From Mycoemilia scoparia (Eukaryota; Kickxellomycota; Kickxellomycetes; Kickxellales; Kickxellaceae), in NCBI GenBank assembly GCA_027575805.1, contig JANBPU010000107.1, positions 1-54,396 on the forward strand: a stretch of 54,396 bases of DNA, in the 5' to 3' direction. Under the pieces are notes generated by a model. It was given only the letters and a program-made list of their open reading frames with translations, had not been told where the DNA came from and did not search any database. Shown one piece after another: positions 672 through 38,218 of the stretch; positions within the stretch are counted from its first letter, which is position 1; each line of letters opens with the position of its first letter. Both the position numbers and the translations under genes were made by a program.

Positions 672-795
672 ATGGGTGGTAATTTTTGAAGGATGCCTTT
701 TGGTGGGTAATGATTATAGGGACAACAATCACAGCCAAATGAATATATCCAGCTTTACTAACAAAAATATTCACCCCTCAAAAACAATAGCTCAT
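672..795 (+). mobile_element. MITE-like element, family 1, copy A
   Basis: Imperfect terminal inverted repeats: the left end reads GGTGGTAATTTTTGAAGG and the right end CACCCCTCAAAAACAATAG. The interior shares GATTATAGGG...CAATCACAGCCAAATG with copies B and F. It is non-coding and about 124 bp. The boundaries are approximate and no clear target-site duplication was identified. Confidence 0.75.
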
Positions 796-911
796 ATCTA
801 ACATAATCCCATAAATTTACCCAACCGATTTATAATAAACTGTTTTTACAAGCTGATAATCAAAGCTATTGATAAATATATTTAGAATTATATAAAAAAG
901 GCCTATCAGTC

Positions 912-2279
912 ATGACGGAGGAGCTCAAAACAATATATCTAACAGAGTACTTGGAGACACTATTGCTCCAATTATCCAGCAATAACAACAGTGACAATAA
1001 CCAAAACAACAATAACGGGGAGGTATATAAGATCAAAGAAAAGCTATGGCAAGACAAAATAATAGATCTTCGATCTATAAGCGACTACAAAAAGGCCCAT
1101 CTCACAATGTCAATGAGTTTCCCATGGGTAGTCAAAGATGAGCAAGATGAGGACAGATTTTTTGAGTTTCCACCCAAAAACACGTCAATTACTCTAGTTC
1201 TTGATGAGTATTCAGACAATGTAACGAAGGTGGCCCGTAGAATTGGAGGAAGGAGGTGGCCTGTTAAACAGGTGATAATATGGAATATTAAAAATGATGG
1301 TAGTTTGACTGAAGGAGGATCAGTTTCCCAAAAATACCAGAGACTTATAGACGCAAAGGGATTGATTTTCTCCAATGATAATAATTGCCCTAGTGGCCAA
1401 AATGGGGAAAAGGAGCCAGTAGTCATGATGTGTCAGCCAGCCAATTTTATGTCATCAACTATTGATTCTATTGAATCAGAACTATTGTTGTTATCATTAT
1501 CAAAGCCATCAGAACCGATTCGGCCAGATACTTTAACTGTAAAAAGCACAGTCTGTAGATACTGGAAAGCACTAGACATTGGGTGTGGGAGTGGACGAGA
1601 TATCGCATTTCTGGCACTACGAGGTCTTCAAAATAATAACGACGGCACTGCCCCCAATAGTGCTGGTTATTGTTGGGATATTACTGGGCTTGACAATTTA
1701 TCAAGCTGTGTCAAGCGATGCAACAGTTATGCACAAAGACTTGGTGTGTCTACTCGAATGCGAGCAATCCAAACATCGGCAATAAACATCGAACCCCCAC
1801 AACAGCATTCGCAAAAAGTAAACACCCATGGCAACACATACAACACTCAACCGTCGCCAATACCGCAGCACCCACACCCACAGAAAGAAAAGGAGGAAGG
1901 GTTTTTACTAGAAAACTGCCCCAATTTTTACGATCTGGTCACAATTATCCGATTTCTTTGTCGACCCGAATTTGAGAAAATAGATCGTTGTATCAAACCA
2001 GGTGGGTTTATAATGATCAGTACTTTTGTCGATCTTGAGCCAGACGAAAGAAACGCCGGTGCTATTAATGCAAAACAACCAGATGGCAAGATCGAAGCTA
2101 AAAAGCCAGCTAGCCCACATTTACGATTAAAGCAAAATGAGCTGAAAAGTTGGTGGTGTGGTGTCAAGGGATATAAAGTGTTTTCAGATATTATTGAAAA
2201 CACAGAGGATGGTAGACCCCTCAACTCATTCCTCGCCCAAAAACCTGCACCCACAAAAGATCCACAGGTACTGGGTTGA
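912..2279 (+). CDS. Rhodanese-like / SAM-dependent methyltransferase fusion protein
   Basis: A 455-residue protein starting at the first ATG. The N-terminal part (about 45-125) has rhodanese-like features: IIDLRS, then YKKAHL, then a hydrophobic LVLDEYSD strand where the active-site loop should lie. No catalytic cysteine is visible there, so a sulfurtransferase activity is unlikely. Residues 220-230 are a classic SAM-binding motif I (ALDIGCGSGRD). Further on, NFYDLVTIIRFL and IKPGGFIMISTF match the motif-IV and post-motif regions of class I methyltransferases. Two low-complexity insertions (Asn-rich near 30-40, Pro/His/Gln-rich near 295-330) interrupt the domains. The substrate is unknown. 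The fusion type is seen in fungal methyltransferases, but I cannot assign an orthologue. Confidence 0.8.
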   Translation: MTEELKTIYLTEYLETLLLQLSSNNNSDNNQNNNNGEVYKIKEKLWQDKIIDLRSISDYKKAHLTMSMSFPWVVKDEQDEDRFFEFPPKNTSITLVLDEYSDNVTKVARRIGGRRWPVKQVIIWNIKNDGSLTEGGSVSQKYQRLIDAKGLIFSNDNNCPSGQNGEKEPVVMMCQPANFMSSTIDSIESELLLLSLSKPSEPIRPDTLTVKSTVCRYWKALDIGCGSGRDIAFLALRGLQNNNDGTAPNSAGYCWDITGLDNLSSCVKRCNSYAQRLGVSTRMRAIQTSAINIEPPQQHSQKVNTHGNTYNTQPSPIPQHPHPQKEKEEGFLLENCPNFYDLVTIIRFLCRPEFEKIDRCIKPGGFIMISTFVDLEPDERNAGAINAKQPDGKIEAKKPASPHLRLKQNELKSWWCGVKGYKVFSDIIENTEDGRPLNSFLAQKPAPTKDPQVLG

Positions 2280-4294
2280 TTCGTTGTTTAAGGTTTATAG
2301 AGTCAATGGAGTTGTTACAACATAATAAATGAAAGTGGTGATAGATAGTGGGGAAGACACAATAATAATGTCGACAACAATCACTTTTCTGGGGGGGGGG
2401 GAATTCGGAACAGGTGTTTGCCATCTTTGTTTGGCTAAGTGTGTTTAATATGTAGTCGCAACTTTTGGGCAATTTTGGATACACCCTCCCACAACACTTG
2501 CGTTTTGTTTATATTATTGTTTCGGGGAGATGAAAGGGAGTGTGTGCTTAGCAAAATCAGGTAATAAACAAGTGACGAAGTGGGCGGCGGATAAAGGTTG
2601 AGATGCCAGAGCACAAAGCAGTTGTTTTTGGTAAACATTATGAGGTAGCGTGAAGCCAAACCACAAGGTTATAGAAAAAGCGCCTACCAAAGAAGTATAC
2701 TTGCAGCAATTTGAATCATATTCAAGGGATGGACTTTGAAGTAATTGGCATTAGAACCTTTCTTCAAGATGATGTTGGATTGTACGATACCCAAAGCCAA
2801 AAGCAGTTACCAACTATCTATCCATTGGCTAATGCGCCACAAAGAAGCGGTCCAACCAAATTTAGTTGTGAATTAGAAGGAGGCGGTGGCGAGAGAGCTA
2901 CAACGGGCGGCGCCTTGCTTTGGTTAAACAAAGGCGTATTAGAGTGGACGAATTTGTTCTGCCATGGCGTGGTGTATGGTTCCCAGTTAACTAGAAGCCT
3001 TTTCTTTGTATTGTTGTACTGTCTTGTTTCTGCAGGGCCTAAAAACAGACTCGAATAACAAGAGTAGGTGTGAGAGGTTCAAGCATTGTAGACAAGTATT
3101 GATTATACCACCATTTTGTTTGATGAATTAGCTGATATTGGCATAAGAAGGACATTCGCATTACACAGGCGGACCATAGAAATCGGGCACTTGCTTGGAT
3201 TGACATTATGTGAGTCTTTCCCAGTCTTGGTATGGTCTTTCAGGCCCACTCGCATGCATAGTGCCGTGTTTCTTTGCCTTCTTATTTGACCGCAGTCTTA
3301 AAAAGCAAAGAAAGCGGTGGCCAATCCCTCGTGTCTGAACGGTTGATTCCCCCACTCAACCACCATTAATACCTTCATTCATTTTGCAGGCTGAAGTGAG
3401 AGTGAGCGATGGCGGCAGATATAACAACAGAGCGCTAGAAGCAGATTTTTAGTACTGTCTGGAGTTCATGTGTGTACGCTCGATGTTCACCCGCCGGCTA
3501 TGCAAATAACGTGAGGATAGTAAAGGGAAGTGGTGGTAATAATGCTGCTTCATCGCAGCCAACACCGCCGCAAATGCAAGAGCAGCCACAATCGTATTTA
3601 TAATACGAGCACTCTGTAGTAAAAGCTGTGTCACCGACCCTGACCCCCATGGATTCATAGTTATTTTAAGGAGCCATCGTTGCACAGTCACCTCTCTAAT
3701 ACCTGAAAGGATCTTGGTTTTGGTTCTGTTTTTAACTTACTCAGCATCCCATACGCACTGTTGCTGTGTGTCGTTTACTTGCCGTGCTGTATTATCCTTT
3801 GATTGTGAAGAAGCCAGTTTACAAACCACATACACCCGCACCAGTCCAATTCACTGGTGCGCTTGTTCGCTCTCTTCCTACTGCGAATGTCCTCTCTCTC
3901 TCTACACACATTGTGCTATCTTTGTTCTTTTTTCCCTTGGGGATTTTCTATCTAAACCGCACCTCTCTTCACACCCACTCGGATACGACCAACCTAATTT
4001 TGGCCAATTTATATACCTGGCTTTTGGTCCCTCGCTTTGTTCGACAAAAGATTAAAGCTTCCTTTTTCTCTTTCTTTTTTCTGCACATTTACACTTCTCC
4101 CTCTCCCTTTTTTCTAACGAAGAGTTCAGCTCTATACCCCTACTCTATCCAACTCCCCTTTAACGCACATTGTTGATTCTTTAATAACCCATCTTTTTGA
4201 CGTTACACACTCTCACGTTTATGTATATATCCTATATATAACACAAGGGCGATTCTTTTACATACACACACACATAAACATCTATTTATACAAA
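2280..4294. other. Intergenic / long promoter and leader region
   Basis: About 2 kb without a convincing gene. It has an 11-base G run at 2391-2401. From about 3700 to 4290 it has a C/T-rich stretch of the kind found in promoters and leaders of strongly expressed fungal genes, leading into the wall protein at 4295. An open frame at 2711-3058 begins with TTG and resembles nothing known. Confidence 0.5.
4233..4240 (+). promoter_or_regulatory. TATA-like element
   Basis: TATATATA, about 55 bases before the start codon of the wall protein, after a long pyrimidine-rich stretch. It is a plausible core promoter element, judged only by motif and position. Confidence 0.35.
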
Positions 4295-5299
4295 ATGAAG
4301 GTTCAGATTGGCTCAGTCTTGGCTATTTCTTTCTTGGCAACTTCCACAATCGCCGCAAACATCCCAGTTCAGTACGGGCAGGTCCACTTTGCCGGCAATA
4401 CCTACAATAATTTGGCCAGGAGAGACAACGATACTAACAACAACAACCCAAACCAGCCACAGCCTGGCGATAGAGATGACGATGATGATAAGGATAATGG
4501 TGGACAGGTTCCAACTCGTAGACCATCTCAGCCCACTATAAATCCCAGACCAACCGACAAGGATGATAACGACGATGATAATACCAAGAAGCAGCCCACT
4601 CCCACTCCAACCGACAAGAGCACCAAATCTGATGACAAGGGCAATACTACAAACACTGGTGACAAGGACAAGGATACCAACGATGACAAAGATACCAGAA
4701 CCAAGTCATCTCCTTCGACATCAGCACCGGCCAGTGATAAGGACGGTGACTCGGAGAGTGCCTCGCAAACCTCAGAGTCAAAATCTGCATCCCCATCGCC
4801 CAAGCCCAAGCCCAAGCCCAAACCCAAAAAGGAGAAGTGTTCGAATGATGGTGCCCAGGAATGTACATCCACCGGATACCGTCACTGTAAGAAGGGATAC
4901 TGGGAACCTGGAACCTGCAAAGCTCCAGATGTATGTATGCTACAAAAGGACAAGACCACTTGTGTATCTCCAGAAGTTGCCAACGCCAAGCCTTGTGATG
5001 ATGAAGGCCAGACTCGCTGCATCGGCGATTTACTGAACGAATTCCAGATGTGCTCTAATGGCAGATGGATGAAATCTACTTGCGATAATGATAATGTTTG
5101 CAAGCCCACGGATGATGGCAAAACCATGTGCATTAGCAGAGACATGGCCACCAAGATTACCAGCATTGCTGATCCCGGTGTCTATGTTCCTCCAAACGGT
5201 GCTGGTGTTTCTAACTCTAAGGAGTTTAACAATGGCTCTTGGTTGGGCTTGGTTGCTATTTTGGGTGTCTCCTCGTCGATTTTTGCCGCATATTACTAG
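4295..5299 (+). CDS. Secreted, probably GPI-anchored cell-wall protein with two CBM19-like modules
   Basis: 334 residues. Residues 1-21 form a signal peptide (MKVQIGSVLAISFLATSTIAA). A dibasic LARR at about 41-44 could be a Kex2 site. Residues about 45-180 are a disordered Asp/Thr/Ser/Pro/Lys stalk ending in a Lys-Pro repeat. Two cysteine modules follow, starting at C182 and C234. Each has the pattern C-x-C, then H/MC-x2-G-x-W, then C and C, which resembles family 19 chitin-binding modules. The C-terminus (NNGSWLGLVAILGVSSSIFAAYY) is a small-residue site followed by a hydrophobic tail with no charged end, the usual GPI-attachment signal. It is therefore probably displayed on the membrane or wall, where the modules could bind chitin. 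Chitin binding is inferred from the cysteine spacing only. Confidence 0.8.
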   Translation: MKVQIGSVLAISFLATSTIAANIPVQYGQVHFAGNTYNNLARRDNDTNNNNPNQPQPGDRDDDDDKDNGGQVPTRRPSQPTINPRPTDKDDNDDDNTKKQPTPTPTDKSTKSDDKGNTTNTGDKDKDTNDDKDTRTKSSPSTSAPASDKDGDSESASQTSESKSASPSPKPKPKPKPKKEKCSNDGAQECTSTGYRHCKKGYWEPGTCKAPDVCMLQKDKTTCVSPEVANAKPCDDEGQTRCIGDLLNEFQMCSNGRWMKSTCDNDNVCKPTDDGKTMCISRDMATKITSIADPGVYVPPNGAGVSNSKEFNNGSWLGLVAILGVSSSIFAAYY

Positions 5300-6842
5300 T
5301 TATGGCGATTATGTTCGTATGTCCCTTTTATTCTATAAAAAAGCGATGGTGATGATCTGGGACCATGGCTTTTGTCCAGACCAACTCTCGCCCTCACTCT
5401 TCTCAACTATCTATAATTTTTGACTTTTATATCCCGCTTTTATATATTTTCTTTTCCTTTTAAGCACATATATTTAGTAACGACCGTGATGTTTTTAAAT
5501 GCTCCTGCCTCCCTCCCTCCCTTTTTGCACAATTCAAATAGAGAAATATTGAATTTACTTTTGCTTTGTCATGTTGAGAAGTCGTGGATTCAGCAAAGCC
5601 ACACAGAGTTTTTGATGAAGTTAGCTATGTACACATTTGATCTTTAGCCACACACACACACACCCCATCCAGTTAACCATGCATTGGGTTGCACGGATCT
5701 CTCTGTGATATCAATACTTATTAGCTGGAAAAGTGTGGGAGACAGATGGGGTTGATATGGGCTATACAAACAATAACAGTGTGAATGGTAGGGCGGCTAT
5801 GGCATTAGAACAGCCAGCAGCGGTGTACAGCCCCAACACAATACTAATGAGACCAATACTAAATCACCACAGCCTTGGTTTTCTTTGAAAGGCCAAAATT
5901 TTTTGTTGGAAATCAAAAGGTGCTGTGTGTCTGACATCATCCAGCTCCCACCATTCAGTTGCGTGTGTGTGTGTGTGCTGTGGAATTCACTTCCCATTTT
6001 TCAGGCCTTTCTTCATGGTTGTTCTGGCCTCTGTTCCTCTCAACACATATTGGACCGATCGGTAGGTTGGCCAGTCTGCGAGGAATGCTTGTAAAAACCG
6101 TTAGCTATCAGCTCAAAATGGTAGCTTCCCCATGCACATGCACGTACATATAGATAGACAGACAGGCAAAATGCCAAAATGCCAGAATCAAGATAGGATG
6201 AATAATGTTTGTCAAACAAAGTCGACATCCATTAAGGGGGATAGAGGAGAATCAGGCTTAGAAAAAAAAGTTCCCTAATCTTTCCCACTGGCCCATACAT
6301 ACTTCACTGAAACGTTTAGTCGTCATAAAGTAGACATGATCCTCCTCAGTCAATAGGGGAGACCGCCCACACATACACACTCATTCAGTGCTGCTGGCCC
6401 AATAATTTTTTTCCTATTTTAATAACGCTTGTTCCAGCTTTGCCCACACGATTGCACATTATTTTTTAGGTTAATGCTGAACACTTGGTGCTACTAATCT
6501 TTTTTTCCGTTTTGGATATTCATCAGTTTTTTTCCAGTACCAAACATTATCATTACAAATCTTTTAAAGTTGGAGCAGATATCGATTTTATCAGCTTTTC
6601 ATTCTTATAATCATTTGTTGCCTCCTAACTATATACTACGCCAATACCCAGACTTCCCAAAAAGATCAATAGGCTACAACAAGTTTCAAAAAATTTTCTA
6701 GAGATTGCTCATACCGCACCTCAGCATTCCAGCCCCTACCCACACCATATCTACAAGCGTTTATACGCGCCTACACACACATATATATACGTACACTGAA
6801 GGGTGGACCAAGCAAACGCATGACCTTAATGTGTAGTAGGAA
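5300..6842. other. Intergenic region with dinucleotide repeats
   Basis: About 1.5 kb between two same-strand genes. It contains CA and GT microsatellites (about 5649-5662 and 5962-5975) and several T-rich runs close to the next gene. No gene was recognised in either strand. Confidence 0.6.
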
Positions 6843-9800
6843 ATGTCAAAGTCCAAGCAGTTTCCTCACCCTTCAGCTCCAACGATACAACAACAGCAAC
6901 AGCAACAGCAGCAACAACAACAGCAGCAAAAACAATACTCAAGCAGAAAGAGCAAAGCTCATACTCTGATACCACCTCCATCTTCTATTGGTGCTATTGT
7001 TGTTAAGCCGACTCAGAAACTCAAACCATTTTGCATCAACAAGAGTCGAGGTTCTCAATACAAACCATTAACCCAAATGCGGGAGAAGCACCACCACCGC
7101 CGCCACCCACCATTGCCTCCGGCTTCGGTAGCAGGAGGTGCAGTTCCTTTAAAAATATTAAAAAAGTTTACATCGGCATCTAATACCAAATTTCAATCTC
7201 AAAACAACAGAAGTACTGCTGCCAGACATGATGACGATAGTATATTAGAGAGCGATCTGATGTCATCTGATATCGAAACGGAGGACTATTTTGACCATGA
7301 TCTATCTTCGTCTACGAAGACATTGGAGGATACCAAGCACTCCAAGAAGACATCGCCGAACAAGAGCAATGCCGCTGCTGCCATTATTGCCAGCATCAGA
7401 AAATTTGGATTGAAAGAGAATCCCCGGAGGTTAACAAAGCTATTCAAAGTCCAGAATTCCAGTTATAACGATGATGATAGTTCTAAGGTTTATTCAAACC
7501 AATTGCCATTGCAGAGTGACGGATTCAAAGAAGCTACCACCACCACCACTACTACTAATGATGCTGCTGCGGCAACAGCAGCGGCTCTCCCAAAGGCCAC
7601 CAACACAATATCACCACCCAATCCTTCATTACCATCATTGGTTGGCGGCAAGTCTCTTAAAAGCCTAAAAACATTGGCCATGAAAACCACGTCTGCTTTG
7701 GGAGCACCCAATTCGTCTGACATGAGTGAAAACAGCGACAGCGATTTTGAAGATCATATTGCGGTCAAACTTGAAAAGCTCAATTCCAAAATTCCGGCTC
7801 TTAATGGACCCGTCCCTACTACCAATAAATCGAAACAACAAACAAAAGTCAAAAATTTTGCAGGAAATAGTGACAAAAACAAGAAAAAGACTAAGCGGAA
7901 ATCCAAGAAATCTGGCAAAGGCAGTACTGCTGAAGACTCCAAGGATCCCGTCAAACCATTTGTTTCACAGCCACCGCCGCCGCCGCTGCCGGCATCAGAA
8001 GCCCTTCAACCATCTAATACTTTGGTTGCTACGGATACAGTGATCCATGATTCAAAAAACACAAGTAATACTGCAAGCCAGATTGTCGATGGTGAGGATG
8101 AGGAGGAAGATATTTGTCCGATTTGTGATTTTGATTGCACTTGTGGTACTGTACTATCTCCTCCAAAACCGCCTTCCACAGCCTCATTTGTTGCACATCC
8201 TATACCACCACCACAAACCACAGAAAGCAATTCGACTGTGGGATCAAAAACCAAAACTTCAACCATCACACCTGCTAGCAATGATACATTGATTTCTACA
8301 ACAGCGGGTGCCGTGGTGGTTGCTGACAAAAAGAAGCCATCAAAAAATACCAAAAAACCTGCATCAACCAACACCAAATCGAAAAGCAAGGCAGCAAAGA
8401 ACAGCAAAAATAATAGGCCCATGGCTACTAGCACTGCAATTGTTGGTAAAGAAAAGAAACCAAAAGCCAATCGTAGTAATATTGAATCCCCTTCACAGAT
8501 GGTTGACACTGATGACGATGATCAGATAAATATAACTGATTTGTTGACATCGGATGACGAAAATGACTATGATTTCCAGGACTTTGAGGATGTTGTAGGC
8601 GCTGATGTTGATGATAGTGACAAGGATTTATTGGACGAAGAGGAGGACTATATTAAACAAACGCTTGTGCAAAGAATGAACAAGAAAAAACATCAGCGGA
8701 AAAGTCATCGTGCTCAGCATTCGCATATGAAAGGGCCAAGCAAACGCCATGGAAAAAGAGCTACTGGCTCGAAAAAGGCTGTTCTTGCTCATGGTCAAAA
8801 AGTCAATAGTGCTGCTTCTGATGGCGATGATGATGATGATAACGACGACAGCGATGACTTATCCAGCCTCTCCAGCTTGGACGGATTTTCTACATCGTCG
8901 TCAAAGTTTAGTGATGACAGCGATATCGATACTCGCGACAAGAATGTTGCGGTTGCTTTGGGATTGACTGGCAACAGCGGAAATGGAGAGTTTGATGAAG
9001 TGTATAGTCAGGACTATGATGATAGTGATGATGAGGAAAACGACGAAGATGCGTTCCTCAGGAGTTACTACTTCGATCATTATACCTCATCCTCATCATT
9101 ATCGTCGGAAAGCGAAGACGAGGATGTTGGTCCAATAGTCAAAGATGGTATCTCTGTTCAAGGCGGCGATCCTGATGATGACCGTGAAGAGCAGCTTCTC
9201 CAGATGCATTTAGATCAAATGAATGTGGTCCACAAGGCTATTAACAAAGATAGTGATAATGGCGGGAACTTGACCACTGCCGAAGCACTATTTGAGTCGT
9301 TCGGTTATATAGATTGCAGTGATCTTTCTGGGAATGAGAATAGTCGTTATAACAATAATAGTAGCGACGATGAGGCATATCAGGAAATGCTGGCCCAATC
9401 ATTAGCCGAATCGGCCAACGCAGGCGGCAGCCAGAGCGATGTCGATTCCTTAGTAAATGTGTCTACCGACTTTGGCTGGTCCGATACTGAAATTGATGAT
9501 GATGGCGACAATGAGGGCCATATGGGTGTCGATAGCATCAGCGATGATAGCGATAGCAGCAGTGATTCCAGCAACTATGACGGCTATCACATGCTGGGCG
9601 ACTCACTAAGCAACAGCTATAACCTCTTGCTTGATCTTGACCAGGATGAGATTGACTCAGTATCACTTGCACTGGGAATCGCACTTAGCATGGAAAACCA
9701 GAAATCTGGAAACAACAATAGCAATGGAAATCAGAGCCAGAATAATGGAGGCGAGGACCTACCTGGTAGTGCCGTTGTTGCCTTGGAGCAAGGGGATGTC

Positions 9801-12419: not shown

Positions 12420-13318
12420 AATATCAGGTGTTTGGGGTTTGTGTTTAGCGGATGAGAGGTGAATGAATACCCTTACTAACACGCAGCATCGCACCAAATC
12501 ACAATAGCAATAATAGGCACACGATATTATTTCAGCAATTATAAAATCTTTGCTGCTATTACTATGTTGTCTATACAAGTATAAAACACACAGATCGCAT
12601 CTACAATTAGTTTTTAAAAAAGCACTATTTTGTTTGAATAATGTATTGTAAAATTTAGATTTTCTTACCTGTTATTATAACAATAAATGTTTGGTTTTAC
12701 ACTATCTTTTATGGACCTGTGTGTGGCTTTTAATTTTGTCTATTTTATGATAGAATTTTAGACAAGTGTCCATGTGTTGTAGTGTTATGAGTTGAATATA
12801 CCTGCCTCACTTTGAGACCTTTGTCTCCTGGTTCTACAATGCCATTTGCATGTAACCAAATCTTTTTGGTATGAGATGTTTGCCACAAGGATGCATGCAC
12901 ATACTGTCAGTCTAGAGACATTCACGATGTTTAATCTAACACAAAGTGCTGGCAGCATTCCTTGGTAAGTTACAGTATACTCAGGCAAGTGTTTTAGGGA
13001 TTTCAAAAGAGTATTGGCGATAATTTTTGAAGGCTGAATTTTGGTGACCAATGATTATAGGGGCAGCAATCGCAGCTAGATGGATGTCCAGTTTCACTAG
13101 TGCACTTTCACCCTTCAAAAATTATTTCCCATTTAGTAGAAGGAATTTCATTGCAAGCAATTTATTTATACAAAAAAAAGAAGTAACTAACGATGTTGAT
13201 ATAAAAATAAATGTAAATGGATGTGATGGTTTCCGTGGTGGTGGTGGGGGAGTGATAGTAACTTCCATGCAGCTTATCCGCCGTCAAGAACAACTCTTTT
13301 GACTACTTTGCTCAAGTA
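12420..13318. other. Convergent intergenic region with one MITE-like element
   Basis: A 3' region shared by the gene ending at 12419 and the reverse-strand gene ending at 13319. It holds a poly(A)-like AATAAA near 12682 and the family-1 element at 13014-13131. Nothing else was recognised. Confidence 0.65.
13014..13131 (+). mobile_element. MITE-like element, family 1, copy B
   Basis: The left end (GGCGATAATTTTTGAAGG) and right end (CACCCTTCAAAAATTATTTC) are inverted repeats. The interior GATTATAGGGGCAGCAATC and GGATGTCCAGTTTCACTAG are nearly identical to copy F and to copy D in reverse orientation. Confidence 0.85.
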
Positions 13319-14026: not shown

Positions 14027-14081
<55 letters not shown>

Positions 14082-14101
14082 TGCTGTTGCTGCTGTTGCT
14101 G

Positions 14102-14156
<55 letters not shown>

Positions 14157-14376
14157 GTCTGTTGCTGCTGCTGTTGTTGTTGTTGTTGCTGCTGTTGCTG
14201 ATATTGTTGCTGTTGTGGCTGTGGCTGTTGTTGTTGCTGATATTGTTGCTGTTGTTGTTGTGGCTGTTGCTGATGTTGCTGTTGCTGTTGTTGTTGTTGC
14301 CGCTGCTGTTGCTGATATTGTTGTTGTTGTTGTTGTGGCTGTTGCTGATGTTGCTGTTGCTGTTGTTGTTGTTGCC

Positions 14377-14407
<31 letters not shown>

Positions 14408-14489
14408 ATATTGTTGTTGTTGTTGCCGCTGCTGTTGCTGTGGCTGTTGCTGTTGCTGATATTGTTGTTGTTGTGGCTGTGGCTGTTGT

Positions 14490-14521
<32 letters not shown>

Positions 14522-18044: not shown

Positions 18045-18133
18045 TGAAAAAGTATGTCTATATATGTGTGTGTGTATGCTTTGTTTGCAAATATAAAGTA
18101 GAACATTAAGAGAGGAGATGGAGGAAGTATGAA

Positions 18134-18227
18134 TCCCAAATTTTGAAGGGAGACTTTTGGTGGCCAACGATTATAGGCGCAGTCACAGTTGCTTATCAAA
18201 TAGAGTCACCATTCAAAAATAACTACA
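18134..18227 (+). mobile_element. MITE-like element, family 1, copy C (degraded)
   Basis: The left end reads CCCAAATTTTGAAGGGAG and the right end TCACCATTCAAAAATAAC. The interior TTGGTGGCCAACGATTATAG matches copies A, B and F, but the middle is shortened. It sits about 90 bases upstream of the inferred MEMO start and about 320 bases upstream of the divergent gene at 18551. Confidence 0.7.
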
Positions 18228-18389
18228 CAAATGATGATAGCATAAGTCAATGCTTAATCAAGTGTATTTTTGTAAAGACATGCTTAAGTAATGCAAAAAA
18301 TCTAAACCAAGATTGCAACTTTTCCTGAGTAGATCAAAGCACCTTCAGTAGTAGTTTTAACTATACTCTCCTAGCTAGAAGCAAAAAGG

Positions 18390-22118: not shown

Positions 22119-22218
22119 GGGTAATAATTTTTGAAGGGTGAAAGTTTACTAGTAAAACTGGACATCCACCCAGCTGTGATTACGCCTATAAATATTCACC
22201 CTTCAAAAATTATTGCCC
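22119..22218 (-). mobile_element. MITE-like element, family 1, copy D (best preserved termini)
   Basis: Exactly 100 bp with 24-base terminal inverted repeats that differ at one position. The left end begins GGGTAATAATTTTTGAAGGG; the right end is the complement of GGGCAATAATTTTTGAAGGG. Read in reverse, its interior (TATAGGCGTAATCACAGCTG, GGATGTCCAGTTTTACTAG) matches copies B and F, so it is inserted in the opposite orientation. It has no coding capacity. Confidence 0.9.
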
Positions 22219-22748: not shown

Positions 22749-22871
22749 ATAGGTGATTATTTTGGAGGGCCAAATGCAGACTTTAGATGACAATAATAAT
22801 GTAGGCAGGCCAATATGCATGATGAAGCTGGTATACCAGTAAAATTTAGCCCTTCAAAAATAATGATCCAT
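22749..22871. mobile_element. MITE-like element, family 1, divergent copy E
   Basis: Related termini (GGTGATTATTTTGGAGGGC and GCCCTTCAAAAATAATGATC) form an imperfect inverted repeat. The interior is mostly unlike the other copies, so it may be an old or subfamily member. The edges are approximate; ATAT flanks both sides. Confidence 0.6.
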
Positions 22872-26241: not shown

Positions 26242-27062
26242 TCACACCTCTTCTCTTTCTTTTTTAACCATATTGCTTTTTGTTAATGTTCATAATGTTA
26301 TCGCAAATAATAGCTTAGAATAATCATATTTGGCAAAGTTGCTTGTGATCATCCGTAAAAAATATAGCTATACCTGAGTGCCTGTGCTCTGTCTCCATAA
26401 CAAACTCCATAGGTTGTTTATTATTAGTGGGGTATGTCAGTAGCATATCTTGGCATAGTACTGTTTGAAATTATATATGCCTAGCTATATTACACTACTA
26501 TTCATTAATAAAATTATCACGCATATGGTGAGATTTCAGTTGGAATCAAATGTGTAGTAGGCAAAAATGAGTCTTCAGATCTTGACCCAATCATCAGATA
26601 TTTATATGTAATTCATAGAGACACATTTGTGTCTAAGGCTGTATTAAATTTGACCACTATGCGAATTTTAATTAATTATTTCAATAGTATTTTCTAACAA
26701 GTATACTTTATGGAGTTTAGGTGAGCACTGGAATGACCTAGTAATCTGATCTGATTTATTTTTAATTAGCCAGTAATAGCTTGTTCTTGTGGTTTACAAA
26801 GCTTTGTTGTTTACAGAGGCAAGGTGATTTCTTTGAAGCTAATGTGATGAGGGTGGTTTGTAAAGAGCAATAAGACTTAGCAGCCACCAAATAACGTCAT
26901 AGCACAACAACAACCTCAAGTCAACCTTGTTTTTTAATCATCTATCTTATATACATACTCTTATTATTGCTACCATCACAACTACCACTATTTGTAATCT
27001 CATCCCCACCAAGCATACATTTTATTTGTTTTTTGCATTTAGCATTTGTGATTCACCAAACT
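26242..27062. other. Intergenic with one family-2 inverted-repeat element
   Basis: AT-rich spacer between the PIG-Y gene and the V-ATPase gene. It carries the family-2 element at 26559-26633. Otherwise nothing was recognised. Confidence 0.6.
26559..26633 (+). mobile_element. MITE-like element, family 2, copy a
   Basis: Left GGCAAAAATGAGTCTTCAG, interior CCCAATCATCAG...ATATGTAATTC, right ACACATTTGTGTC. TA on both flanks would fit a TA target-site duplication. It aligns along its length with copies b and c (c reversed). The right terminus has decayed. Confidence 0.65.
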
Positions 27063-28421: not shown

Positions 28422-31400
28422 ATGTCCGAGGTCTTGTCCGCTGTGGGCAATGCTAATGGGCACGAGTCAATAGATTTAGAAAGGAAAAGCCAGGATAGCA
28501 TACAAATGTCCAGCTCCGCTCATTCAAGAAGCTCGTCTGAAGATGAGGATAATGGTGCTAACGGTGCTGATTCCAAGGTTAGCTTTTCTAGCACCGAACA
28601 TAATAAAATAACCACCGCAACCACACAACATTTTCCACCTCCTGCCACAGCAACCAGCAGCTATGAAGACGAAGAAGATAGCTACTATAGCGAAGCAAGT
28701 ATGCAACAGCATTCAGATGATGGTAGTGGCAGGAAGAAACAGTCTTCTGACCATAGTGATCTTGACCAAGAGTCCACACCAAATACTAGTAATCAGCCAG
28801 CACATTCTCAGGGTGCATCAGACATCAATGATCCTGCTGTACAGAGTGATGGAAGTCATAATTCGCTAAATTCGGCTCCGCTTCCGCCCCCGCTAGAGTT
28901 AGAATCGACCGATCAGAATGGTGGTGGTGGTGGTGATAAAAATGAGCAAAAACCAGCCAGCACACACCCGAATACGCCTTTACCTAGCCTTGTTATGGTC
29001 ATCGGGACATTTGAGAAGCTTATGGATACCTGGGATGGTCGCAGAAAATCAATGAAACTGATTCTGACAGAGACTGTTGACACACTCAAGAAAAAGGCCG
29101 ATTCGGCAAACTCAGTTGCAAATAACGAGTTTGGTGATCAAAGTTACCATACGTCCAGTCGATTGACTCGATCCGAAGCCGACACCGTTCTCAAGGCACT
29201 CGAGATGTCGTGCGAGACTCAGTCTCAGGCTTGCATGGTTTTGGCCCTCGATTGTATTGAAAAGATTGTATCGTATCATTATTTGGATCCTCTGGTGGTG
29301 CCCATGCTACAACCACCACAGCCATCAACGGCAAAATCAATAGATACCCCTGAATACACAGAATTCCAGAAGCAGCTAAAGGATGATTATATTTTTGGTC
29401 AGACTTTGGGATCTCGTATAGTCACAATGATCTGCAACTGCTTGAGAAGTAAGAGCACGCCTGAGGCAGTTCAATTACAAATAGTAAAGGCTCTGCTTAC
29501 AACCGTATCAATGTCATCGCTTCCGGTACATTTGGGTACCTTGCAATATGCCGTTCGTACAATGTACAATGTTTACCTGCTGTGTAAGAATCCTGGAACA
29601 CAGACCATTGCTCAAGGCGCATTGGCCCAAATTATCCATTTGGTATTTAGTCGAGTGCCCTTGGGATATACCCAGCTCCAAGAATCCAATGATGCTGAGA
29701 GTGGGATGACATATAATAAAGATACTGTAGATGACGCATCTTCTATGTATAGTCCCCAGCCTCCTGATTCGGCCATAACTAATGCCGAGTTTAAAACCAA
29801 AGAGCATGACAAAGCAGCAGATGGGCTAATGGTCGACAGCAGTCTCAATAACATTTACATTCGTGACGCATTCTTGGTTTTTAGATCGCTGTGCAAAATC
29901 TCGATGAAGAATGGTGAAAAAGAAAATATTGGGGATATGAATTCTATTCCAATGAGAGCCAGGGCTTTGGCACTTCATTTGATTGATATGGTTTTGACTG
30001 GTCATATGGATGTATTCACTACCTCGTTGGTATATCTGCGAATGTCTAGCAGCGGTGGTGGTGGTGGAGGAAGTGGGGAAAACAAGTGTGATCCAAAATC
30101 TACAGAAAATACAAAGTCTGGACCAGTCTCATCACCACAGCAAGGGCAAAATAGTCATTACCTTTCTTCCGTTTCTGAAGAGCTCAAGCAAACCTATCCA
30201 GTTGGGCTTGGTAGTGGACCTAGCAGAAAGGATGATATTGATAATGTTAATGAGGAAGAAGAGATGGCCAGTAACGCTAGGGCAACAATCAAAGCATCAC
30301 AAGCTGCTTCCGAGGCTGTACAAAAGAGCCATGACTCCATAAACATCGGCGAAAATAAGAATGCAGCTTCCACTACCAACTCAACTGATGATATAAAACC
30401 TGCAACATACATTGGAGACTCTGGGAAATCCAACCAAAGCGACTCGGTTGTAGCCGTGCCATTTATAGCTGTCATCAAACAATACCTCTCACTAAGTTTG
30501 AGCCAGAATTTGGTTTCCGGAACCAAGACAATTCTAAGCGCAGCCTTGTCAATTTTTGAAAAGACTGTCCTCTGCTTGCGTCACTATTTCAAGCACGAGT
30601 GTGAACTCATTTTCAAGGAAATTATATTGCCTATGCTTGAAATGAAGTATGCAACCACGCCTATGCAGAGAGACCTACTGATCGCTAGCTTGGCAAAGGT
30701 GTTGTCCGATCCACAGCTGGTCGTTGAATTGTATCTCAACTACGATTGTGATAGCGATGCTTCAGTCAATGTATTTGAAAGGTTGGTTGAGGTACTTGCA
30801 AAAATCAGTGGCTCAATAGTCACCTATTCAGGGTCCAGGAAGAGCTCTTCTTCAACGTATACAAATTCGTATTACAGTGAATACCACGGATTTGTTAGTG
30901 ACTCAGAGGCTTGGAACCACATTCGTAGCAAACAAACCGTATTTTCTACTTCTGCAGATAATACATATTTTGCTCAACAACAGCAACAGCAGCAATTACA
31001 GCGGAAGCTCAGTTTACATCAGCCCGTAGCCAGTACAGAAACAATTCCTCAAGACAGGTTGTCTAAAAGGGAATCAGTATCAACACAAACCCCACAGATA
31101 GACAGACCATCAGTTTCATCTACAAACAATCTGCCCTATATTGGTGGCTTGGATAAGAATCTGACTTTGCAAGCTGCTCAAGCCCAGGCGTCAGGTGCAA
31201 AGATAGATGACTACTTGATTCGCCAACACTGCCTGGATGCTTTGACCGCCTTGTTGCAAAGTATGGTGGTATGGAGTGATCGCCCAACTAATAAGCCTCT
31301 TCACGATACCACAGCAACTGCAGTAGCAGCATCCTCTTTGGGAGCAAATCCTCAAGAATCCAGAGAAATTTCTGTAGAAACATCCAATACCAACAACCGC

Positions 31401-34400
31401 GATGAGTCGGTCGCTGATGATAACAGCACAATTACTGCTACTACTAGTGCTACATTTGGAAAGGATGATGATCCCGAGCAACTACAAAACATAAAGCGGC
31501 GCAAAGAAAAGTTCACTGAAGCCCTTAAGTTATTTAACCATAAGCCTAAGAAGGGTGTAAAGAGATGGATCGATGATGAATTCATTCTATCGTCTGATCC
31601 AAAAGACATAGCACGCTTTCTGCTTACCAACACCACGGCTGGTATCAATAAGGCCCAGCTTGGTGAATATCTTGGCGAAGGTGACGCTGAAAACATTGCT
31701 GTAATGCATGCGTTTGTTGACCTTATGGATTTCACTAACCAGAGATTTGTTTCAGCTCTACGCCAATTCTTACAAGCATTCAGATTGCCTGGAGAGTCAC
31801 AAAAGATCGATAGATTCATGCTGAAGTTTGCTGAACGCTATGTCATGGGAAATCCTGATGTGTTTGCCAACGCTGATGCAGCCTATGTCCTAGCCTATTC
31901 GGTTATTATGCTCAACACAGACTTGCATTCAGCTCAAGTTAAGCGAAGAATGACAAAGGATCAGTTTATTGCCAATAACCGAGGTATCAATGATAATTCT
32001 GATCTGCCTGAACAGATGCTGGTAGCTATTTATGACGAAATTGGGCGTGATGAAATTATATTGAAAGATGATCCACTGGGTGAAACTGTCAAAAAATCTC
32101 AAGATTCTTCATACGGATTTATGCAGAGATCCTCTGGACTTGGTGGTGGTAGAAGAGTTGAGCCCATAGTATACTATGAGGCTTCGCAAACAATGGCACA
32201 AAAGGCCGAAGAATCTTTGCGCAGAATTGCTAGAAACCGTAAAATTAGGAGGGTGTCGCAGCTACGATCAGATCATCATTATCAGTACCACGGTAAGACC
32301 AGCGAGTCTTCATCCAGAGGGCATGGTGGATCGGATTCGCCCATTGCATCTGCTGCTTCGGCAACCTTTGATGAGCAGGCTGATGCTCGCACCAGTCGAG
32401 AAAGCACTCGTAGTGGTACCGATGGCGAGGATGAAAGAGCCAATTTGATGAGTGACAGCATGGTGGCATCCACCAACACTTTGTCGGTTCTTCTTGATGT
32501 TGCCGACTTTACCCGTGCATCAAGGGCAGAGCATGTCGCTCCAATGTTTAAGGCTATTTGGGCACCTGTCCTTGCTGCTCTTTCTTCGCCCATGCAAACA
32601 TCGCACGATCCATTTGTCATATCTACATGTCTTCTAGGATTCCAGTGCGGTATTGCCATTTCCTGTCGTTTTAGAATGAATGTTGAGAGATCAGCGTACG
32701 TTACCACACTGGCTAACTTTACATCGTTGGCTAACCTGGCTGAAATTCGTCACAAGAACATTGAAGCTATTCATTCCTTCTTGGAAGTTGCCGCCAGTCG
32801 TCCTGATATTGGAGATGGACTTGGTGACCACTGGCTGGATATCTTGAAATGCGTGTCACAGCTTGAAAGGTTGCAGCAATTGATTCAGGTCCCAATGTAT
32901 GAAACTGCTCATCACTATCAAGGTAATGGAGGAAATGGTGGGCCTGACACCGGTCCATTGGCCATCCCCGCAACTGTCCTTTTGTCTACAAACCCACGAG
33001 CTTCTATGTCACTTCGCCGAACATCGATGCAAAGCTCTTCATCATCAGCCGTCACTGGGCTATTTGGATTTGGTGGTGGATCCTCAAATGCTTCAAAGTA
33101 TCCACAGATCCCTAAAGTATTGGTATCTGATCTGGCAAGCCTTGGCGTTAGTTCTCAGGCACTTGTGGTCGCTGTAGATCGGATATTCACTTCATCTGTA
33201 TCACTCTCAGGTGCCGGTATTGTTAATTTTGTAAGAGCCTTGTCCCAGGTCTCTTGGGATGAAATTGAGTCTTCAACTGGTCACTATAATGCTTCTCATG
33301 GACGCAAGCCTTCTAATGCTACGGTCAGCTCACAGACTAGTAGTAATATGGGTGGCGGAGATGCTTCAGTAGCATCAGTAGTTTCGTCCAACAAACCTGG
33401 AAGATCAAATCAGCTCCACCATCAGGCAACAACAGCGACAGCTAACACAACTTCACCCCCACCAAGAATGTACTCGTTACAAAAGATTGTCGAAATTTCA
33501 TACTACAACATGGGTCGTATTCGCGTAGAATGGGCTCAAGTATGGGCCATCCTTGGTGAGCACTTCAACCGGGCTGGATCACACCCTGACCCTCGTGTTG
33601 TGGCATTTACTTTGGATTCACTACGCCAGCTTTCAATGAAATTCTTGGAAAAAGAAGAGCTACCCCATTTCCAATTCCAAAAGGATTTCCTTCGGCCATT
33701 TTCATATGTTTTGGAAACATCAGCTTTGGGCACTATTGGAAGTGGAGTCAAGGATATGGTATTGCAATGTGTTTTGCAGATTGTTAGGTCTGCTGCACAT
33801 AACATCCGATCGGGCTGGAAGGCCATTTTTTATGTAGCCCAAGCCGCAGCTAGAGATCCAGAGGAAGCAATCAATGAGCAAGGATTCAGGCTAGCTAAAG
33901 AATGCGCAAATAACCATACTAAGCAGATGTGGTACTGGTCAGTACAGGAATCCCTGCAGCAATCAGCTAAAGGCGGTAGTGCTACCAATGCTGCAGTTTT
34001 GGATACCCCAATTGATTGTGGAAAGAAATCCGAATCAGTGGATACTGTGACACCAATAATGGTCGGGTCAGAGTATTTCAATGAGATGATTGATTGTCTC
34101 AACGAATATGTTATGAATTCCGATCTGAGACCAAGAATCGCTCTTCAAGCTTTGCATGTAATGAGAGATATTGTTTCCAAGGTTGCAAAGGATGTTGAAT
34201 CGCTCTTGCCTCAATCCTATGGTGGCAAGGTCACCAAAGAAAATTGTGAGACTGCATGTGCCAGCCCCACAGAATATGACGTCTATTTCCAACTATTCAC
34301 ACCATTGTTCAAAGCAATGCACGAGGTAGTAATGAGAGCAAATGATTTAGAGGTGAGAACTGGAGCCCTGGATACCCTGTTTTCGTTTATGAAAGAGTAT

Positions 34401-36194
34401 GGTAAATACTTCAGCGCAACTTCTTGGGAATCTCTGCTTACAACCCGGGTGTTCTCCATATTCGAAGATCTCCAATACCCCCACAACTCGCACAGGTTTA
34501 CAACAGTCGATGATCTTGAGCTATGGTTCTCAACAACTTTGATCAAAGCTCTACGGCATGTGATTGAACTATTTACCTTGTATTTTGAACATCACCTAGA
34601 AAGATACTTTTCAAATGTATTGCAGCTCCTCAAACTGTGTATAGTTCAGCCATCAAAGACTCTTATCGAAATTGGCGTCATTTGTCTACAAGAATTGGTA
34701 GAATCCAATTATTCAAGGTTTGATGAGGAATCTTGGAATCATTTATGCGCATTGGTTGTGGATTTGTTCCAGTGGAGTCAACCTAATACCTTGCTTAGAC
34801 CCACCGCTACTCGAACTAACCAGCCTGAAAACAGTAGTAATAAAGAGGAAGTAGACGACGATGATGACGATGTGCCTCTTATTTCTAGAAAACAAAATGG
34901 TCGCAACTCTCTGTTTGTATCTCCACATCGAGGGTTGGTCAGCAATGGGGTGTTTGGTGAGACTACCGCGTCGAGAATGGATGGCGGACCAAATGCTGGA
35001 AGCGGAAGTAATAGCTATAACAGAATCAAGCTAAAGTGTCTACTCCAGTTACAGCTAATCAAACTCCTTGACCAGCTATTGACACTGCCACACTCATGTA
35101 TTGAAAATTCTAGATCACCACTCATACCTACCAGCACGCCTGAACCTTCGTCAACCCCCACCGGTAATTCCAATACCACTACTCTGCCAGTTAATCCATT
35201 AGTTGGGTATAATTATACGAGCATACCAAAAAGCCGTATTACTCTTGACCCATTAACATCCACTTCAGGAACTCACGATATAGCACCTCACATTTCATCA
35301 CACCACTTGTTGTGCTTACTGGATTGCCTGGAACAGTCTCGAGATTTCGCACACCGCTTCAATTGCAATATCCCGTTACGCCAAAAGTTGGTTGAAGTTG
35401 GCATTGTCCCACAAATGCCCAGTCTTCTTAAACAAGAAACATCCAGTGCACTGGCTTCTCTTCGTATACTCGGCCGAATGTATCTCGAGGCGCTTCGTGA
35501 ACAGGATGACAACGAAACGAACAAAAATTTGAAAGAATCGGTGTCGCAGAAGAATTTGTCATCAAAGTGGAAGTTTTTGGAGTCGCATAGCCACAAGGAT
35601 AGAAAGGTTGTCCAGGAAGAAATTGAAGACAAGTTTGTGTCTCTAATGCTGATGGTGTTGACTTCATTTAATGGCATTAGCCCTGATGATAGATTAGGCC
35701 GACCTACTTCCCCCCAATCAGGCGATGCTGATGCTGGAGCAGAGTTCCAAGATGATGAAAGAAATAACAAACACAATGTTACAACCCTGAGCTGGCTAAG
35801 CGATAAACATACTGGTCGCGGCACCAAGACCAAGGAAACAACTATAAGCGAACATGATCTGTTGTTGCATCCCAAATACAGAAAAGAGTGGAGAAAGTGC
35901 GTATACATGGTCCTTTCGTTTTTGCCCCACCTAGCTATCATCCCAGTCGTTAACTCAACAGCAACAGCTACTACTAATTCCAAAAAGCAGAAAGCGAAGG
36001 TAGACGAAATTAAAGAACTGTTCAGATCCCACCCATTCGTCAGTGCTATGTCCAAACTTTATCCTCAGCTCATAAGGACTATTGGAGCAGCAGCAGAAAA
36101 TGAAGATTTCGAGCTAATTTCTTGGTGCCAAGTTATACTTGCAGCTATTGGACAAATTCATGGCATATGCCCAGATACTATCAAATTTGCCTAA
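28422..36194 (+). CDS. SEC7: Sec7/BIG-type ARF guanine-nucleotide exchange factor
   Basis: 2590 residues in one uninterrupted frame. Residues 1-190 are acidic and disordered. The DCB and HUS regions follow (about 190-830), with the HUS box NYDCD at 773-777. The catalytic Sec7 domain spans about 1024-1210. It includes KLFNHKPKKGVKRW, the glutamic finger FRLPGESQKIDR (E1125) and YVLAYSVIMLNTDLHS, all features of an active exchanger. Downstream HDS-type helical repeats run to the C-terminus with low-complexity linkers. Large fungal Sec7 proteins of this kind activate Arf1 at the trans-Golgi to drive vesicle formation. It is longer than the roughly 2000-residue yeast protein because of Ser/Gly/Asn-rich insertions. 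All key residues seen are intact. Confidence 0.97.
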   Translation: MSEVLSAVGNANGHESIDLERKSQDSIQMSSSAHSRSSSEDEDNGANGADSKVSFSSTEHNKITTATTQHFPPPATATSSYEDEEDSYYSEASMQQHSDDGSGRKKQSSDHSDLDQESTPNTSNQPAHSQGASDINDPAVQSDGSHNSLNSAPLPPPLELESTDQNGGGGGDKNEQKPASTHPNTPLPSLVMVIGTFEKLMDTWDGRRKSMKLILTETVDTLKKKADSANSVANNEFGDQSYHTSSRLTRSEADTVLKALEMSCETQSQACMVLALDCIEKIVSYHYLDPLVVPMLQPPQPSTAKSIDTPEYTEFQKQLKDDYIFGQTLGSRIVTMICNCLRSKSTPEAVQLQIVKALLTTVSMSSLPVHLGTLQYAVRTMYNVYLLCKNPGTQTIAQGALAQIIHLVFSRVPLGYTQLQESNDAESGMTYNKDTVDDASSMYSPQPPDSAITNAEFKTKEHDKAADGLMVDSSLNNIYIRDAFLVFRSLCKISMKNGEKENIGDMNSIPMRARALALHLIDMVLTGHMDVFTTSLVYLRMSSSGGGGGGSGENKCDPKSTENTKSGPVSSPQQGQNSHYLSSVSEELKQTYPVGLGSGPSRKDDIDNVNEEEEMASNARATIKASQAASEAVQKSHDSINIGENKNAASTTNSTDDIKPATYIGDSGKSNQSDSVVAVPFIAVIKQYLSLSLSQNLVSGTKTILSAALSIFEKTVLCLRHYFKHECELIFKEIILPMLEMKYATTPMQRDLLIASLAKVLSDPQLVVELYLNYDCDSDASVNVFERLVEVLAKISGSIVTYSGSRKSSSSTYTNSYYSEYHGFVSDSEAWNHIRSKQTVFSTSADNTYFAQQQQQQQLQRKLSLHQPVASTETIPQDRLSKRESVSTQTPQIDRPSVSSTNNLPYIGGLDKNLTLQAAQAQASGAKIDDYLIRQHCLDALTALLQSMVVWSDRPTNKPLHDTTATAVAASSLGANPQESREISVETSNTNNRDESVADDNSTITATTSATFGKDDDPEQLQNIKRRKEKFTEALKLFNHKPKKGVKRWIDDEFILSSDPKDIARFLLTNTTAGINKAQLGEYLGEGDAENIAVMHAFVDLMDFTNQRFVSALRQFLQAFRLPGESQKIDRFMLKFAERYVMGNPDVFANADAAYVLAYSVIMLNTDLHSAQVKRRMTKDQFIANNRGINDNSDLPEQMLVAIYDEIGRDEIILKDDPLGETVKKSQDSSYGFMQRSSGLGGGRRVEPIVYYEASQTMAQKAEESLRRIARNRKIRRVSQLRSDHHYQYHGKTSESSSRGHGGSDSPIASAASATFDEQADARTSRESTRSGTDGEDERANLMSDSMVASTNTLSVLLDVADFTRASRAEHVAPMFKAIWAPVLAALSSPMQTSHDPFVISTCLLGFQCGIAISCRFRMNVERSAYVTTLANFTSLANLAEIRHKNIEAIHSFLEVAASRPDIGDGLGDHWLDILKCVSQLERLQQLIQVPMYETAHHYQGNGGNGGPDTGPLAIPATVLLSTNPRASMSLRRTSMQSSSSSAVTGLFGFGGGSSNASKYPQIPKVLVSDLASLGVSSQALVVAVDRIFTSSVSLSGAGIVNFVRALSQVSWDEIESSTGHYNASHGRKPSNATVSSQTSSNMGGGDASVASVVSSNKPGRSNQLHHQATTATANTTSPPPRMYSLQKIVEISYYNMGRIRVEWAQVWAILGEHFNRAGSHPDPRVVAFTLDSLRQLSMKFLEKEELPHFQFQKDFLRPFSYVLETSALGTIGSGVKDMVLQCVLQIVRSAAHNIRSGWKAIFYVAQAAARDPEEAINEQGFRLAKECANNHTKQMWYWSVQESLQQSAKGGSATNAAVLDTPIDCGKKSESVDTVTPIMVGSEYFNEMIDCLNEYVMNSDLRPRIALQALHVMRDIVSKVAKDVESLLPQSYGGKVTKENCETACASPTEYDVYFQLFTPLFKAMHEVVMRANDLEVRTGALDTLFSFMKEYGKYFSATSWESLLTTRVFSIFEDLQYPHNSHRFTTVDDLELWFSTTLIKALRHVIELFTLYFEHHLERYFSNVLQLLKLCIVQPSKTLIEIGVICLQELVESNYSRFDEESWNHLCALVVDLFQWSQPNTLLRPTATRTNQPENSSNKEEVDDDDDDVPLISRKQNGRNSLFVSPHRGLVSNGVFGETTASRMDGGPNAGSGSNSYNRIKLKCLLQLQLIKLLDQLLTLPHSCIENSRSPLIPTSTPEPSSTPTGNSNTTTLPVNPLVGYNYTSIPKSRITLDPLTSTSGTHDIAPHISSHHLLCLLDCLEQSRDFAHRFNCNIPLRQKLVEVGIVPQMPSLLKQETSSALASLRILGRMYLEALREQDDNETNKNLKESVSQKNLSSKWKFLESHSHKDRKVVQEEIEDKFVSLMLMVLTSFNGISPDDRLGRPTSPQSGDADAGAEFQDDERNNKHNVTTLSWLSDKHTGRGTKTKETTISEHDLLLHPKYRKEWRKCVYMVLSFLPHLAIIPVVNSTATATTNSKKQKAKVDEIKELFRSHPFVSAMSKLYPQLIRTIGAAAENEDFELISWCQVILAAIGQIHGICPDTIKFA

Positions 36195-36549
36195 CACTTT
36201 TCCTTGTTTTTTATTGAGTTGATTTTACCAATGCCAATATCATTATATTCTAGTACAGCATTATTAATGACAAATATAATAGAATGTGGTTAAAATGAGT
36301 GATTTTACTCTATTGTCTCAAACTTGGCCACTATTGAGTATGGCTTGGAATCGAATTCTTTAGTCTACTATATACTTTCACTTTACTTAATCAGTCGCTT
36401 GGTGAAATGTTCTCAAAGATATTTTGTTGAACAACTTTCGTCAAAAGTACATATAAGGTTGATGAGGCGAGCCAAAAGTATGGAGAATATTTTTTTCTTT
36501 CAAACATCGATAATAATAACCTGTTTTGTGCAATTTATTCTAAAACCAC
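36195..36549. other. Short intergenic spacer, nothing recognised
   Basis: AT-rich sequence between SEC7 and the next plus-strand gene. No signal beyond possible 3' and 5' UTRs. Confidence 0.6.
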
Positions 36550-37338
36550 ATGGAAAATAATACCAATAGCAGTCGCAACTCATATGACCTTCCTAGCCAA
36601 CTTGAACTGTTAGATCGTATTATTACTTGCTTGAAAATGGTTAGCGATTGGAAGGGTACACCCAGTGATCAATACACATTTCACCAACGTACAAAGGATA
36701 TGCTGCTGAGTGCCAGTCAGGACTATATGCTTGGATATCCAAGCATAAGAGGGATACTTGGCAAATTATCATTGAAAATTGAGCTTGACAACGAACATTC
36801 AGGTTCCTATGAAGCTATGACATTGTCCAAGGTCGATCAAATCAGAGAATTGGGCATTCAAGATGAAGAATCACAAACTTCATCCAGTAGTGGTCAAAAC
36901 AATCAATATGATACCTCATGCTTTGCTTCTTCTGCCATTCCTCGATTTCATGTTCGGACTTTCGATGACTTTACTTTACAACAAACAGGCATTACAAAGA
37001 ACATGCTAGTACCTTTAGTAAAACAGCTGTTGGAATCAATAAATGAAATGGTCAAAAATGATTCATGTCAGCCCTCCTTGAACAGCTTCTTTAACAATAC
37101 TGAAGCCCAAATAACAAGAAAAAAGATTCTTAAGCATCTTTCATGTTTCGAAAATACCCAGTGCAACCATCCAGGCACTACTAATATGACCATGGACCTA
37201 GAATTAATCATTTTATTTGATGGTAACATGGCAGTTTATATAGACACACAGCCTGATAGTCGAAACCCTGACAATGGTTTGTCCACGCTTTGGTTCTTTA
37301 AAACTAACTTGGTCAAGTTCCCAGATAATATTCTTTAA
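36550..37338 (+). CDS. Hypothetical protein, 262 residues
   Basis: One open frame from ATG (MENNTNSSRNSYDLPSQLEL) to TAA. It is soluble with no signal peptide or membrane segment. The N-terminal half is helical (LLDRIITCLKMVSDWKG, YTFHQRTKDMLLSASQDYM) with a short Ser-rich linker near 113-120. The C-terminal half contains a probable beta segment LELIILFDGNMAVYIDTQPD. The mix of hydrophobic core pattern and ordinary composition argues for a real folded protein. I do not recognise the family. Confidence 0.6.
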   Translation: MENNTNSSRNSYDLPSQLELLDRIITCLKMVSDWKGTPSDQYTFHQRTKDMLLSASQDYMLGYPSIRGILGKLSLKIELDNEHSGSYEAMTLSKVDQIRELGIQDEESQTSSSSGQNNQYDTSCFASSAIPRFHVRTFDDFTLQQTGITKNMLVPLVKQLLESINEMVKNDSCQPSLNSFFNNTEAQITRKKILKHLSCFENTQCNHPGTTNMTMDLELIILFDGNMAVYIDTQPDSRNPDNGLSTLWFFKTNLVKFPDNIL

Positions 37339-38218
37339 TGTATTCGCTGGCTTGTTTGAAAATGTGCTAGCATAAAATCAAATGTAATATCTCTCTTTTT
37401 TATTTTTTATCAACAATAATATTATCATTATCTGATATTGGAATCATACTTGTTAACGTTTTTATTGAAAAAAATGGTATAATTTTTGTTTCAACATTTT
37501 CAGAGGTACCAACTCAGTTGAGCATAAACACAATTATTATATTTTTTACTTTTACATTGACTTTATATTCTACTCATGTTTTGAATAAAATGCCCTTTAG
37601 ATATTACTTGGCATATGTGAGATAATTTTTGGTGGTCAATAATTATAGGGGCAATCACAGCCAAATGGATGTCCAGTTTTTCTAGTAAACTTTTACCCTT
37701 CAAAAATTATTGCCCAAATCTCACTGCATATCAAAGCTGCTGCCTATTCAAACAGCATAATATCTGTTTTTGTAAGCATCCGACCTTCTTTTGAAATGTA
37801 CAATAGCAATTTGACATTTCTACAGCATTTTGATATGATACAATCTGCTATTCTTAGGTGTTTGTTTGATGATTCAGTGGATTGGGACATGTAAAGTAAG
37901 TCTGTTGTTTTCCTATTTATGTAATGTTTAAATATTCCTAAAGATTTTGTTTACTATTGCAATAATTTATCCATTCTATGAATGAACAAGCTATTTTCTA
38001 AAGAGTTAAGGAAGTTTAGTGTGTAGTATTTTTTCATTTATTTATAATGATCAAAGGCTTTAAAATGATAATTTCAATATCGATGTTTGTTAAGTAGGCA
38101 AATGCATTGAAGGAAACCTCTAAGCTTTTAATACCGAGAGGAAGTTAAAGAAAAATGACAGAGTAGAGATTCACATCTGAGTACAATTCAACCTATGACT
38201 TATGATCATAGAAAGTAG
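37339..38218. other. Intergenic with one MITE-like element
   Basis: Very AT-rich. It holds the family-1 element at 37615-37716. No coding potential was recognised. Confidence 0.6.
37615..37716 (+). mobile_element. MITE-like element, family 1, copy F
   Basis: The right end is the perfect family terminus (TACCCTTCAAAAATTATTGC). The left end (GAGATAATTTTTGGTGGTC) lacks about 15 bases found in copy B. The interior AATTATAGGGGCAATCACAG and GGATGTCCAGTTTTTCTAG match copies A, B and D. Confidence 0.85.

Follow-up and report, generated by a model that had tools for sequence, protein, structure and literature searches.

The six related noncoding repeats in the window belong to a high-copy family, family 1, whose members are very probably (about 95%) MITEs, i.e., nonautonomous cut-and-paste DNA transposons inserted at a duplicated 4-bp target. 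The window, a stretch of 54,396 nucleotides, is one complete contig of the Mycoemilia scoparia genome (21.16 Mb in 466 contigs). The elements are short, bounded by terminal inverted repeats (TIRs), noncoding, homogeneous in size, present in high copy number, and flanked by a target-site duplication, which are the defining features of MITEs and bear out the MITE-like reading given in a preliminary description of the window.

All six copies reported in that description were recovered at about the same positions, with their ends refined (Table 1). When the window was scanned for the 24-base TIR with 6 or fewer mismatches allowed, all 9 matches fell within the six copies, and the reversed TIR, used as a control, gave 0 at the same threshold. 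The 24-base TIRs of copy D had been described as carrying one mismatch, and they indeed differ at 1 of 24 positions. The six copies had also been credited with common termini and a common interior; the shared TIR was found throughout, copy E included, but the interior with GATTATAGGGGC and GGATGTCCAGTTT is absent from copy E. Copy E is the only one in the window with a perfect 4-bp duplication, as the flanks of A, B, C, D, and F are unequal.

Table 1. Family-1 copies in the window, with refined ends and 4-bp flanks (left / right)
Copy	Position	Strand	Element	Flanks
A	674..793	+	120-bp MITE, TIRs decayed	AAAT / ATAT
B	13015..13130	+	116-bp MITE	GTAT / ATTT
C	about 18131..18228	+	~98-bp MITE, decayed left end	GTAT / AAAT
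D	22119..22218	-	100-bp MITE, subfamily a	ATAT / TGGT (own strand)
E	22751..22869	-	119-bp MITE, subfamily d	ATAT / ATAT
F	37617..37715	+	99-bp MITE, decayed left TIR	ATAT / AAAT

Open reading frames (ORFs) of at least 150 amino acids, counted from ATG to stop, occupy 57% of the window, and 0 of the six copies overlap one, in agreement with the earlier statement that the copies are noncoding and intergenic. With 263 of the 442 ATAT sites of the window (60%) lying outside such ORFs, all six copies would do so by chance in about 4% of cases if placed at random ATAT sites, and in 0.6% if placed at random bases; a preference for non-ORF sequence is thus weak at best. The genes of the window include those for a Sec7/BIG-type protein, Coq4, and a dynamin-family GTPase. 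The nearest relatives of this Coq4 protein were those of Coemansia sp. RSA 552 (51% identity over 87%), Spiromyces aspiralis (70% over 64%), and Furculomyces boomerangus (50% over 90%), so that this one gene suggests a position in Kickxellomycotina. The window also holds an intergenic 5S rRNA gene at 39388-39506 (+; 91.6 bits) and, at 76-401, four cysteine-rich tandem repeats of the CKCGNECKCG type, recognized by eye, which perhaps encode a metallothionein-like protein.

Across the whole genome, a 20-base TIR with at most 1 mismatch was found 860 times (439 + 421), against 0 + 0 for its reversed control. The TIR is therefore abundant well beyond the window, and the hundreds to thousands of copies projected from six copies in 54 kb proved to be of the right order. 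We also sampled 144 distinct copies with both TIRs at most 4 mismatches from one of three variants, a length of 60 to 180 bp, and at least 14 bp of flank; the sample drops copies failing these thresholds, window copy A among them. TIR ends at the 20-base, one-mismatch threshold number 4 per 6 copies in the window, and scaling by this ratio gives about 1,290 copies genome-wide; the 144-copy sample, which favors good TIRs, has 0.93 such ends per copy and gives about 925. A crude estimate for family 1 is 900 to 1,300 copies, which would make up roughly 0.5% of the genome.

The family-1 TIR is close to GGGCAATAATTTTTGAAGGGTGAA, and the sampled elements are mostly 81 to 135 bp long, with lengths clustering at 84-85, 97-100, and 112-114. 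When the 144 copies were assigned to subfamilies by best match, 87 fell into subfamily b (consensus of 113 bp, median divergence of 8.8%), 26 into a (100 bp, 5.0%), 22 into s (85 bp, 6.6%), and 9 into d (114 bp, 12.3%); because good TIRs were the way into this set, it understates divergence and gives clusters too much weight. Judged by eye, subfamilies b, a, and s look like a series of successive internal deletions. Subfamily d has its own interior, but the TIR is common to all four subfamilies, which fits recognition by one transposase. Such an enzyme, encoded elsewhere now or formerly, would have recognized the TIR and produced the approximately 1,000 intergenic copies.

The flank alignment proposed in the preliminary description revealed a target-site duplication of 4 bp. 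The 4-bp flanks were equal in 115 of the 144 copies, compared with a mean of 79.6 and a maximum of 91 in 10,000 shuffles. Because ATAT accounts for 213 of the 288 flanks, the 26 copies with ATAT in neither flank provide a sharper test, and 20 of them had equal flanks (shuffles: mean of 2.93, maximum of 11). Among the 115 equal pairs, 95 were ATAT and 18 were one base off ATAT. The 29 unequal pairs comprised 19 with a single-base difference, 8 with two differences, 1 with three, and 1 with four. In an earlier set of 94 copies, the flanks were equal at 4 bp in 72 copies versus 45.7 expected, with 0 at 3 bp, 0 at 5 bp, 2 at 6 bp, and 1 at 8 bp; its 2-bp flanks matched in 64 copies versus 63.8 expected, i.e., without any excess. 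The duplicated non-ATAT targets include CTAT, ATAC, ATTA, AGTT, ATCT, and AGAT, and equal flanks at CTAT, ATAC, ATTA, and AGTT exclude a 2-bp TA duplication with conserved neighbors. The duplicated target is thus usually ATAT, and most of the exceptions deviate from it at a single base.

The preliminary description had called for a full-length transposon with family-1 termini, and none was located in the loci that we read. The autonomous partner was not found in this partial search, which does not show its absence. Reading all 45 TIRs with one unusual type of interior revealed, by eye, MITEs, adjacent pairs, and truncated ends, but no transposase element. Among the 69 TIRs with a second unusual interior type, there are 55 in which the 20 bases that follow the TIR match one of the ends of the 144-copy set at 4 mismatches or fewer; the 9 loci read, comprising 8 of the remaining 14 and 1 of the 55, included no transposase-bearing element.

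Individual loci were rejected on closer reading. At L111, a TIR lies 5' of a 419-codon frame, but no second TIR closes the element, the frame matches a single Pfam family, TTC7_N, at 16.9 bits and thus short of the cut-off of 27, and it has 5 matches in the genome, with the paralogue L141 continuing the inner sequence without a TIR. L134, taken as a possible longer element, resembles by eye an eroded MITE adjoining a gene. L159 and L162 showed no partner TIR in about 1 kb further inward, and no frame recognized as a transposase on reading. Separately, L138:7087-8346 (-) on C3 and L140-L142 on C198 form a small family of intact or near-intact frames of 390 to 420 codons, with no Pfam match above the cut-off and with a promoter-like stretch, AAGGGTATAAATACTGGGCAG, in common.

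Which transposase mobilized family 1 can be considered from the duplication and from the transposases of the genome. Sola, Academ, Ginger, and Chapaev/CMC are superfamilies with a 4-bp duplication, and we think it quite possible, at somewhat less than even odds, that a known superfamily of this type supplied the partner; the point in its favor is the length of the duplication. The genome gave 0 matches to the DDE_Tnp_1_7 and KDZ models, for both of which the control was silent, and 0 to DDE_Tnp_4, whose control matched in 1 of 14, so these are weak negatives. The single genome match to DDE_1, when read, had no family-1 TIR. PiggyBac and Kolobok elements target TTAA, a sequence outside the 15 commonest flanking 4-mers of family 1, and the family-1 flanks do not agree with this target.

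It is very improbable that the Tc1-like elements of the genome mobilize family 1, even though the DDE_3 model had 15 matches, several of them with open frames. Like family 1, these are TIR-bounded DNA transposons, but 7 of the 8 loci read have their own inverted repeats of 214 to 239 bp and unrelated sequence, the eighth (L099) having a weak one, and the family-1 TIR was found at none of the 8 at up to 5 of 24 mismatches. Moreover, Tc1/mariner elements duplicate TA rather than 4 bp. Several of the DDE_3 elements at L100-L106 have open frames and inverted-repeat arms that are 94 to 99% identical, and these elements are possibly recent.

Mobilization by the Mutator-like elements (MULEs) of the genome is just as doubtful. 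The genome has 4 MULE matches, one of them in a 595-codon frame with an abutting family-1 pair some 160 bp away from its candidate end, but at this match, the one that was read, the candidate ends consist of GTCACCATTTT-like repeats rather than the family-1 TIR. MULEs usually duplicate 8 to 11 bp, unlike family 1, whose 5-bp flanks match in 0 of 144 copies and whose 6-bp flanks match in 2.

Family-1 copies were repeatedly found edge to edge. In the sample, 27 of 284 testable flanks abut the TIR of another copy across a common 4-mer, and a genome-wide search for the palindromic junction pattern at up to 3 mismatches found 27 places, compared with 0 for the control. As the pattern detects about 22 to 51% of junctions, 50 to 120 may exist. 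Random insertion into ATAT predicts 5 to 8 junctions for 900 copies, 10 to 16 for 1,300, and 23 to 39 for 2,000, and the excess therefore hinges on copy number, since 2,000 copies would predict a number matching the raw 27. Abutting copies are probably a few-fold in excess, although this is not certain, and part of the excess could stem from regional clustering. New copies may preferentially have entered ATAT at the edges of existing ones, thereby forming MITE-ATAT-MITE pairs. None of the 27 junctions was a near-perfect palindrome (at most 1 mismatch), a result with a chance of about 0.01 by the more cautious of two null models, itself built on a biased sample. Perhaps such palindromes are absent through the instability of long palindromes or through failed assembly.

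One insertion can be compared with its empty site. The copy at L051:283-382 sits within another, older family-1 member, and when the flanks of the inner copy are joined minus one ATAT, the restored host aligns, with ordinary divergence, with uninterrupted elements at L145, L133, L122, L109, L151, and L158 and with window copy E. The 4-bp duplication and this empty site together show that the copies are independent insertions, and not parts of a structured RNA, the outcome that the preliminary description had named as the alternative. It is extremely improbable that the copies are instead a conserved RNA structure or dispersed hairpins with a regulatory role: copies D (z of -7.46), B (-3.61), and E (-2.57) fold clearly better than shuffles, with C at -2.02, but a perfect TIR folds by itself, hairpin strength drops with TIR decay across the six copies, A (0.04) and F (-0.26) fold no better than shuffles, and the only Rfam match in the window at gathering cut-offs was the 5S rRNA gene mentioned above, with no family overlapping a copy.

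Besides the MITEs of family 1, we noted a second MITE-like family at L002:176-278 and L113:1004-1113, of about 103 bp, with the ends GGGAAGATTTCACTAGTGA ... TGAACTTTGACC and the flanks ATAT/ATAT (L002) and AAAT/AAAT (L113); partial matches to it lie in the window at 26531-26603 (+), 48503-48574 (+), and 53914-53959 (-). Both families are noncoding, about 100 bp long, and flanked by a 4-bp AWAT, but they differ in their ends and interior. At L163:16-168, a family-1 TIR is directly joined to a family-2 interior, as if a deletion had fused two abutting elements. It is rather unlikely that both AWAT-target families are relics of an undescribed transposase lineage of early-diverging fungi that is highly specific for ATAT and prefers to insert at the edges of its earlier insertions.

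Exact TIR scans, in collections that may lack records close to this genome, returned 1 stretch from viruses and 2 from prokaryotes, without adjoining MITE sequence. In the limited literature collection that we searched, we found no description of family 1, no match to its TIR string, and no Kickxell MITEs; by that literature, family 1 is a new family within the already known class of MITEs. An ATAT duplication is on record for BmMITE-10 of the silkworm, which is called novel and is listed without a superfamily; that MITE differs from family 1 in its TIR (CGTCGCTGTCAAACC...), its length of 258 bp, and its insect host, and shows no sequence likeness (PMC2997013). Tandem occurrence is shared with CMITE of Acropora corals, which is linked to piggyBac-like elements and also forms tandem arrays with similar spacers attributed to replication slippage; in contrast, the family-1 pairs have only one 4-mer in common and often differ in length (PMC2872659).

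In a fungal lineage for which the literature searched yielded no MITE, family 1 is a clean MITE family of high copy number whose target is defined. Its ATAT target, nested copies, and abutting pairs offer a handle for tracing the missing transposase and a set of markers for strain comparison. Otherwise, family 1 is an ordinary passenger of the genome.
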